Shown here in pieces: positions 20,023-22,769 of a DNA stretch of 64,000 nucleotides. The notes beneath the pieces were generated by a model. It did no database searches, was not told the origin of the DNA, and saw only the letters and a program-made list of their open reading frames with translations. How positions within the stretch are numbered: the stretch's first letter is position 1; every line of letters starts with the position of its first letter. A program made the translations under genes and the position numbers. The DNA is from Nitrospinaceae bacterium (GTDB lineage Bacteria > Nitrospinota > Nitrospinia > Nitrospinales > Nitrospinaceae): the NCBI GenBank assembly GCA_029261395.1, contig JAJDBJ010000005.1:1-64000 (forward strand), written 5' to 3'.

Positions 20023-20041
20023 GTGATAATTATGATCGTGT

Positions 20042-20180
20042 TAATATTTCCCCTCCTTACGAAGGAGGGGATACAGGGGAGGTTATGGTGCCCTCTACCT
20101 TGATTTTAGAGAGTTTTCATAAACCTGCAAAACCCACCCCACCTGTATCCTCCCCTTGGTAAGGGGAGGAATAGTTAATT
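20042..20180. repeat. REP-type inverted repeat pair (about 140 bp)
   Basis: The left arm (about 20042-20084) contains the hairpin CCCCTCCTTACGAAGGAGGGG followed by ATACAGGGGAGGTT. The right arm (about 20131-20180) is an imperfect inverted copy: ACCTGTATCCTCCCC then TTGGTAAGGGGAGGA. The outer ends are TAATAT and TTAATTA-like. About 45 bp separate the arms. The structure is that of a small non-coding mobile or REP-doublet element between larE and the next gene. Confidence 0.65.
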
Positions 20181-20243: not shown

Positions 20244-20486
20244 ATGTTTCAATTTAAATTGAACGACGAAATCCGCAAGCAGATGAAAAATCCGGACCTG
20301 TTCATCAAGGGGATGGAAAAAACGTATTGGGGGTTGATCATCGCCATGGCCGGTGTCGGGCTGATGCTGATCCTGTATTTCAACAATCCGGAAAACGTAC
20401 TGCACCCCACCTGGATATTGCTCATCGGCCTCGGCCTCGCCGGCTGGGGCGAATGGCAGAAATACAAGGGCAAGGGAAGCCTTTAA
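20244..20486 (+). CDS. Small two-helix membrane protein
   Basis: 80 residues with AAGGAG at ideal distance from the ATG. An N-terminal charged part (LNDEIRKQMKNPDLFIKG) is followed by two transmembrane helices at about residues 31-49 (WGLIIAMAGVGLMLILYF) and 58-72 (WILLIGLGLAGWGEW) and a lysine-rich tail. No family recognised. It stands alone between a REP-type repeat and a minus-strand RNA element. Confidence 0.7.
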   Translation: MFQFKLNDEIRKQMKNPDLFIKGMEKTYWGLIIAMAGVGLMLILYFNNPENVLHPTWILLIGLGLAGWGEWQKYKGKGSL

Positions 20487-20559: not shown

Positions 20560-20593
20560 AAAAAAAGGACCCTTTCTTTTCGAAAAGATCCTT
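20560..20593 (-). terminator. Rho-independent terminator of the small RNA
   Basis: Reading the minus strand, AAGGATCTTTTC pairs with GAAAAG...GGGTCCTT and is followed by seven T residues. The GGGTCC arm can alternatively pair with the RNA's 5' region, so the two folds may compete. Confidence 0.75.
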
Positions 20594-20712
20594 GGGGGTT
20601 GTCTTCCCACTACTTCGGCTTCTCTCGAAGGCAACCCCCGTTGGCCTATAGCCGATCCAACTTACCCTACTAACTCTCGGCTATATCAGGAGTGGGTCCC
20701 ATTACCCTCTCC
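20560..20712 (-). ncRNA. Candidate structured small RNA with own promoter and terminator
   Basis: On the minus strand a promoter (20718-20748) is followed by about 150 nt without an ORF and a U-rich terminator. Predicted pairings by eye: GGACCC (20567-20572) with GGGTCC (20694-20699) closing the whole; TATAGCCGA (20647-20655) with TCGGCTATA (20677-20685); and GGGGGTTG (20594-20601) with CAACCCCC (20632-20639), which encloses CTTCG/CGAAG (20613-20617 and 20626-20630). Length and solo promoter recall 6S RNA, but the branched fold does not clearly match it, and I recognise no known riboswitch core. Start near 20712 is inferred from the -10. Confidence 0.65.
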
Positions 20713-20717
20713 CATAA

Positions 20718-20748
20718 ATAATATGAGCCGACCCGCCACCCCTGTCAA
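20718..20748 (-). promoter_or_regulatory. Sigma-70-type promoter of the small RNA
   Basis: A perfect -35 TTGACA (20743-20748) and a -10 TATTAT (20718-20723) with a 19-bp spacer; CATATT at 17 bp is the alternative. It lies in the gap just downstream of proC's stop codon, so it is not a proC promoter. Confidence 0.65.
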
Positions 20749-20774: not shown

Positions 20775-21635
20775 CTACTTACTTTTTTTAGGCGGGGTGT
20801 TATTTTCGGAGTTTTGGCCGAGGACCTGCGACCGTTTGGTGGCGGCTTCGACGGCGTTCATGAGTGTGGTGCGGAGCCCCCCTTCTTCCAGACTTTGCAA
20901 GCCGGAGATGGTGGTGCCGCCGGGTGAGGTGACCTGATCTTTCAATTCGCCGGGATGCTTGCCGCTTTCCAATGCGAGTTTGGCGGAACCGAGAACGGTT
21001 TGCAAGGTGAGAATATTCGCCACGTCGCGCGACAGTCCCATCTTCACTCCGGCGTCGGACAGGGCTTCGATGATCATGAAAATGTAGGCCGGCCCACTGC
21101 CGCTCAACCCGGTTACCGCATCGAGATGCGATTCATTCACGTCGACGGTTTTTCCGACGGCTTCAAAAATCCGGTGCGCCACTTTGAGATCTGCGGCAGA
21201 CACATTATCGTTGACTGCCAGCGCGGTCACTCCTTCATGCACCAGAGCCGGAGTATTGGGCATGGTGCGCACCACTCCCAACTTTTTCTTGCCGTCCGGA
21301 TTTAAAATTTCCTCAATGGTTTTGATGGCAATGCCGGCAGCGATGGAGATCACCAGTTTTTTATCGTCGCCCGCATCGGCAATGTTTTCCAACACGGCTC
21401 TCATCGACTGCGGTTTGACGGCCAAAAGAATAATGTCGCATTTCTTTGCCAGTTCTTTGCTGTCGTCGGTAGTTTTCGCATGATATTCCTGGCGCAACCA
21501 TTCCCGCCGTACCGGGCAGACGTCGGCGACCATCAGGTTTTTGGCTTCGATAAATCCCGCGGACAGAAGGCCCTTGATCAGCGCCTCGGCCATGTTGCCA
21601 CCTCCGATGAATCCTATTTTTTTACTTTTCAGCAC
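20775..21635 (-). CDS. proC: Pyrroline-5-carboxylate reductase ProC
   Basis: 286 residues, GTG start with GGAG upstream. It reduces 1-pyrroline-5-carboxylate to proline with NAD(P)H. The Rossmann fold opens with IGFIGGGNMAEALIKG, VRTMPNTPALVHEG is the conserved strand-loop of the family, and the dimer/substrate region reads DAVTGLSGSGPAYIFMIIEAL and SPGGTTISGLQSLEEGGLR. A lysine-rich tail ends the protein. It follows yggS by 27 bp on the same strand, the common yggS-proC arrangement. Confidence 0.96.
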   Translation of the reverse strand: MLKSKKIGFIGGGNMAEALIKGLLSAGFIEAKNLMVADVCPVRREWLRQEYHAKTTDDSKELAKKCDIILLAVKPQSMRAVLENIADAGDDKKLVISIAAGIAIKTIEEILNPDGKKKLGVVRTMPNTPALVHEGVTALAVNDNVSAADLKVAHRIFEAVGKTVDVNESHLDAVTGLSGSGPAYIFMIIEALSDAGVKMGLSRDVANILTLQTVLGSAKLALESGKHPGELKDQVTSPGGTTISGLQSLEEGGLRTTLMNAVEAATKRSQVLGQNSENNTPPKKSK

Positions 21636-21662: not shown

Positions 21663-22358
21663 TTAGTGAGCCTCACGCTCTCCGAAAATAGCCGAACCCA
21701 CCCGCACCCAGGTGGCGCCTTCTTCGATGGCCACTTCAAAATCGTTCGACATGCCCATGGACAATTCGTCCATGGAAATATTTTCGACATTCACTTTTTG
21801 CATCCGGTCCCGCAGATTCCGTAACGCGGCAAAATGCTTGCGTGACTTTTCAGGATCGGGATCGAACGGTGGAATCGTCATCAACCCCCGGACGGAAATC
21901 CCGGTCAGGGACACCAGCATGTCGAGCAACTCTTCCAGGTTGGGGGCCAGCACACCGGACTTGCTGGACTCTCCCGAAATGTTGACCTGAATCAATACCG
22001 GCGTGACTACATCATGTTTCAAACTGTACCGGTGAATATCTTCGGCCAATTCCGAATTGTCAACCGAATGAATCAACTCGAACAGGCCGGGAATATACTT
22101 TACTTTATTCCTCTGCAAACGCCCAATGAAATGCCAGTGATAGGATTCCGTGCCCAGAGCTTCGATTTTGTCCCGGGCTTCCTGAACCTTGTTCTCCCCC
22201 AACACACAGCCCTCTATCCCACCGACTTCGATGCGTTCAGCGGGAACAGTTTTGGACACCGCAACCAAACGAACGGCATCCGGCTCGCGTCCGGATTTAC
22301 GGGCGGCCTCGGCCATGCGTTCTTTAACGGTAGCAAGGTTATCGGCAATCAAGGACAT
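21663..22358 (-). CDS. yggS: YggS/PLPBP family pyridoxal phosphate homeostasis protein
   Basis: 231 residues, a single-domain fold-III PLP protein that buffers intracellular pyridoxal phosphate and has no known catalytic activity. The PLP lysine is K36 in LVAVSKTVPAERI; HFIGRLQRNKVKYI, VNISGESSKSG, GLMTIPP and LSMGMSNDFEVAIEEGAT (phosphate loop), then VRVGSAIFGER are all family blocks. It lies between a PII-like gene and proC on the same strand. Confidence 0.95.
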   Translation of the reverse strand: MSLIADNLATVKERMAEAARKSGREPDAVRLVAVSKTVPAERIEVGGIEGCVLGENKVQEARDKIEALGTESYHWHFIGRLQRNKVKYIPGLFELIHSVDNSELAEDIHRYSLKHDVVTPVLIQVNISGESSKSGVLAPNLEELLDMLVSLTGISVRGLMTIPPFDPDPEKSRKHFAALRNLRDRMQKVNVENISMDELSMGMSNDFEVAIEEGATWVRVGSAIFGEREAH

Positions 22359-22421
22359 GGATCGGTCTGGGGGTTGAAAGTTTACAGGATTAAAGCCGAT
22401 AACCCTTATTCAGAATGACGT

Positions 22422-22769
22422 TCAATATAAAGCCTGGGTGCCCTTCTCTCCGGTACGCACCCGAATGGCTTCTTCCACCGGCTGGACAAAAATTTTACCA
22501 TCTCCCAGGTTGCCGGTGTGCAGGATGGACACCATCGCGTCGACCACCTCATCGACACTTTCATCCTCCAGAACGATAGTGATTTCGATCCGGTGATGAA
22601 ACTGGGGGACCTTGCTTATTTCCGGATCGGGATCGGATTGCATTTGACTCAGGGGTTTGCCGATACCCTTGATTTCGGATACGGACATACCGGGAACCCC
22701 CAGGGCAAACAACTTTGCCCTGATCTCATCCAGCTTTTCGAACCGCATGTAGCATTTGATCATTTTCAT
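22422..22769 (-). CDS. PII-family signal protein lacking the T-loop tyrosine
   Basis: 115 residues, the normal PII length. The body is clearly PII: MKMIKCYMRFEKLDEIRAKL at the start, GMSVSEIKGIG before the T-loop, and TGNLGDGKIFVQPVEEAIRVRTGE at the end, which includes the ATP-binding block. The T-loop reads SQMQSDPDPEISKVPQFHH and has no tyrosine, so it cannot be uridylylated at the usual Tyr51. It is likely a specialised PII paralogue sensing ATP/ADP or 2-oxoglutarate for an unknown target. No ammonium transporter is adjacent. It lies 63 bp upstream of yggS. Confidence 0.88.
   Translation of the reverse strand: MKMIKCYMRFEKLDEIRAKLFALGVPGMSVSEIKGIGKPLSQMQSDPDPEISKVPQFHHRIEITIVLEDESVDEVVDAMVSILHTGNLGDGKIFVQPVEEAIRVRTGEKGTQALY

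Follow-up and report, generated by a model that had tools for sequence, protein, structure and literature searches.

Within the window, the 64,000-nucleotide stretch of Nitrospinaceae DNA that was analysed, the gene proC (pyrroline-5-carboxylate reductase; 20775–21635, minus strand) is followed by a convergent gene for an 80-aa protein without a Pfam match (20244–20486, plus strand), and between the two the elements of a small-RNA gene succeed one another on the minus strand. Read from 20748 to 20560, these are TTGACA, a 17-nt spacer, CATATT, and about 155 nt of further sequence that closes with a 12-pair stem and a T run. The 80-aa gene is present in 54 of 77 Nitrospinota genomes, and genes for a YggS-like protein (Ala_racemase_N) and a P-II nitrogen regulator precede proC in the window (21663–22769). 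On the far side of the 80-aa gene, positions 20040–20180 hold cccctccttacgaaggagggg, a palindromic repeat, and after it a related copy in inverted orientation; this looks like a dispersed repeat, and similar sequence occurs near the locus in another genome, G007 (L003, L100).

Twelve full copies of the RNA locus were available for comparison. The −35 element TTGACA (20743–20748, minus strand) is exact in 11 of them and reads TTAACA in G002, while the −10 element (20720–20725, minus strand) is CATATT or TATATT in 11 and CCTATT in the deviant copy, G009. The two elements stand 16–17 nt apart across the copies, and upstream of the promoter the homologues diverge in sequence. The initial annotation had proposed a minus-strand TTGACA/TATTAT promoter; its −35 element stands, but the conserved −10 element at the 17-nt spacing is CATATT, not TATTAT. 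Placing the start by the −10 element and the end by the U-tract (20560–20566, minus strand) gives a putative small RNA gene of ~155 nt (20560–20716, minus strand). It ends, as had been claimed, in an intrinsic terminator, with hairpin 4 (20565–20593, minus strand) forming the 12-pair stem and the T run at its end. A U-run 3′ of hairpin 3 is seen in 9 of the 12 copies, the copies without a clear U-tract terminator being those of G001, G008 and G014. In G001 (L095) the palindrome CCAGCGTGACGCTGG takes the place of the terminator after hairpin 3, and in G003 the same palindrome sits just past the terminator. By themselves these signals prove little, since their numbers are near chance: a scan of a 451-base region returned one promoter-like site (0.4 expected) and one terminator-like site (0.7 expected). 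The proposed ~150 nt of non-coding sequence is borne out at ~155 nt, as indels between homologues shift every frame and no ORF is common to the copies, which rules out a shared reading frame.

More telling than these counts is the fold, whose stability lies well past chance: the folding energy is −60.5 kcal/mol, compared with −43.4 ± 3.9 kcal/mol in shuffled sequences (z = −4.4; 0 of 200 as stable). The architecture consists of three hairpins in series plus the terminator, all on the minus strand. Hairpin 1 (GGGAG.GGGU/ACCC.CUCCU) spans 20688–20713. Hairpin 2 (UAUAGCCGA/UCGGCUAUA; 20647–20685) has a 9-bp stem joining 20685–20677 to 20655–20647 and a C-poor, AGU-rich loop. In hairpin 3 (GGGGGUUGCCUUC/GAAGACAACCCCC; 20594–20639), 20639–20627 pairs with 20606–20594 over 12–13 pairs, including an 8-bp stem, and the GGGGUUG/CAACCCC core is invariant in all copies. 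Three perfect stems of 9, 8 and 6 bp had been reported; the 9- and 8-bp stems are real and conserved, but the 6-bp outer pairing, GGACCC/GGGTCC, is private to the window's genome. It is whole in the window only, and in the four closest homologues the corresponding positions read G-G, C-A, C-C and C-T, with T-A kept. In the window this pairing overlaps the terminator stem, and two competing folds had been proposed on that basis; because the pairing is private to one genome, the proposal is unsupported. The overlap is also what would favour a riboswitch or a cis-acting leader whose two folds compete. We consider such an element highly improbable: the pairing is broken in homologues, no second conserved fold was found, and no same-strand gene follows in the window, where, as in most copies, a convergent gene comes next.

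The 12 full copies come from 11 Nitrospinota genomes in five genera and two families. BLAST finds relatives in three genomes of the window's genus; a covariance model built from five copies adds G001 and G002 of that genus, G009 (another genus of the same family) and G022 (the second family), and also matches L016, which has the same sequence as the G014 region. A second covariance model, without the terminator, confirms these copies and gives no match outside the order at E 0.01 among 387 relatives. Diverged copies in G008 and G010 were found by reading downstream of proC. With a third model, run on 40 genomes, the sole G008 match has the expected location and strand (E 0.02). The sole G010 match falls at the right locus but is scored on the other strand, hairpin 3 being close to a palindrome. 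A partial copy lies at a contig edge in G011, and weak matches of the second model in G064, G066 and G019 (E 0.05–0.6) did not recur with the third. Two more genomes of the window's genus, G004 and G006, gave no match; since they are 70–72% complete and proC also went undetected in them, the RNA's absence there is uninformative. In the family f2, neither covariance-model searches nor reading of the locus found the RNA, which makes it dispensable within the order; where proC borders the 80-aa gene in f2 genomes, it nearly abuts it, with no RNA between.

Nearly all copies lie directly 3′ of proC and are mostly followed by the convergent 80-aa gene; in G005, proC and the RNA are separated by a 76-aa ORF. 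G007 carries two near-identical RNA copies (L010:3920–6415 and L003) flanking ~2.2 kb that hold the end of an RHS-core-like ORF, an unassigned ORF and a Sel1-repeat gene, after which the second copy follows. We read this doubling as the product of a duplication or an insertion at this locus. Together with the inverted repeats, the pair of copies around an inserted block could be taken to indicate a palindromic mobile or repeat element and no RNA gene at all, but we give this reading next to no weight: the window sequence is single-copy in its own genome, the place after proC is fixed across genera, the promoter is kept, and the stems show compensatory changes.

These changes were assessed in a covariance-model alignment of ten sequences, used instead of a MAFFT alignment of all ten copies, which misaligned the distant ones. 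Being fitted to the structure, the covariance-model alignment has an advantage in its pairing score; 93.6% of its cells pair (38–52% in slid controls). Double-sided changes affect 12 of 32 pairs (4.6 in shuffles), and the score was not attained in any of 500 shuffles. A MAFFT alignment of seven sequences, not fitted to structure, points the same way with less force (5 pairs; 4 of 500 shuffles). Covariation is strongest in hairpin 1, where 7 of 11 pairs show a double-sided change in at least one copy and the inner stem is GGGU/ACCC in the window, CGAG/CUCG in G022 and ACGGU/ACCGU in G014. The cores of hairpins 2 and 3 (UAUAGCC/GGCUAUA and GGGGUUG/CAACCCC) hardly vary and are held more tightly than pairing alone requires; with these core pairs invariant among the aligned copies, hairpin 1 and the inner part of hairpin 3 supply most of the covariation. 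Judged from sequence comparison, the proC-side locus is almost certainly a real conserved structured RNA gene.

Searches of Rfam returned nothing credible for the window at gathering thresholds or at E up to 10, nor for the homologues tested at E up to 5. The homologues, the covariation, the kept promoter and the lack of an Rfam match together uphold the initial annotation's picture of a complete stand-alone RNA gene of unassigned class. Its suggestion of 6S RNA does not hold. The size and autonomous promoter would suit 6S RNA or another RNA-polymerase-binding RNA, but a genuine 6S RNA (RF00013) lies elsewhere in the same genome (G000:C30:31743–31918; 87 bits), RF00013 is over the cut-off in 67 of the 77 Nitrospinota genomes at places other than the proC-side RNA, and the latter has no RF00013 match even at E = 10. 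Its hairpins are serial, and the 6S hallmarks of paired 5′ and 3′ ends and one long stem with a large central bubble are not present or conserved, and we regard 6S RNA or another polymerase-binding RNA as extremely unlikely. The best reading is that the locus represents a new, lineage-restricted small-RNA family in part of the Nitrospinota order, ordinary in kind, and that it is a stand-alone non-coding small-RNA gene, probably trans-acting.

As to how such an RNA may act, the loops of hairpins 2 and 3 contain 8% C in 497 bases and are rich in AGU, often as AGUGG or AGUAAG. AGU occurs 37 times, where mononucleotide shuffles give 13 and dinucleotide shuffles 24; the motif was picked after looking, six of nine loop pairs come from one genus, and the copies in G008 and G010 seem to be without it. 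TRAP-like (G/U)AG repeats are not enriched in the loops. Sequence identity is 0.92 and 0.84 in the stems of hairpins 2 and 3 and 0.56 and 0.45 in their loops, and conservation within the RNA is lowest in the loops and linker. Stems that stay fixed while loops drift suit recognition of structure or by protein better than a conserved antisense seed. This bears on the alternative of an Hfq-independent antisense small RNA, whose hairpin 2 and 3 loops would pair with pyrimidine-rich mRNA sites (CUUACU, CCACUU). A stand-alone gene with a terminator, and long unstructured loops with recurring AGU-containing words, would fit it, and we hold it to be a plausible if less probable reading, given the poor conservation of loops and linker and the purine-rich loops, unlike the C-rich loops of RNAs that pair with Shine-Dalgarno sites.

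Hfq (PF17209) was found in 0 of 16 Nitrospinota genomes and ProQ (PF04352) in 0 of 12, with working controls in both cases; a CsrA gene is present in 13 of the 16 genomes examined for it, including the window's. The presence of CsrA and the repeated loop motif might suggest a CsrA-titrating RNA of the CsrB/RsmZ type, but the loops show no excess of GGA (12 observed against 18 expected), and we think this very unlikely. Short motifs repeated in several loops, held on rigid stems, are somewhat easier to reconcile with a multivalent protein-binding RNA than with an antisense RNA. RNA polymerase would produce a transcript of 155–200 nt from the sigma-70-type promoter; its three rigid stems would present single-stranded, C-poor loops in which AGU motifs recur, and these multiple sites may bind a cellular protein, without Hfq or ProQ, that the RNA titrates or scaffolds. 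Taken as a whole, a lineage-specific trans-acting RNA gene acting by protein binding is our best explanation, with a probability of roughly 0.6. Protein binding as the mode of action, considered on its own, is put forward tentatively from sequence features, at a little short of even odds. It is doubtful whether the RNA would go further and constitute a new class of multivalent protein-binding RNA, defined by AGU motifs, two C-poor loops and sequence-constrained stems, that titrates, or serves as a scaffold for, an RNA-binding protein for which no partner of this sort is known.

In the sea, Nitrospinota are major oxidisers of nitrite, and the open papers that were searched yielded no description of a regulatory RNA in Nitrospinota or of a small RNA in Nitrospina. 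With its covariation support and strong promoter, the present family is a concrete first candidate for a regulatory RNA in this phylum. Since neither Hfq nor ProQ turned up in the genomes examined, it also has a bearing on small-RNA action in the absence of those chaperones. Among known systems, the proC-side RNA resembles 6S RNA in its similar length, its own promoter and its stand-alone gene, but it coexists with a separate 6S RNA in the same genomes and has neither the long central-bubble stem nor an RF00013 match. With protein-sponge RNAs of the CsrB/RsmZ type it shares serial hairpins and a short motif repeated in several loops, but that motif is AGU and not GGA, the sequence is otherwise different and Rfam gives no match. 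Like Hfq-independent antisense small RNAs, it is a stand-alone gene with exposed loops and, in the window, an intrinsic terminator; it differs from them in that its loops are purine-rich and variable, whereas its stems are conserved in sequence.
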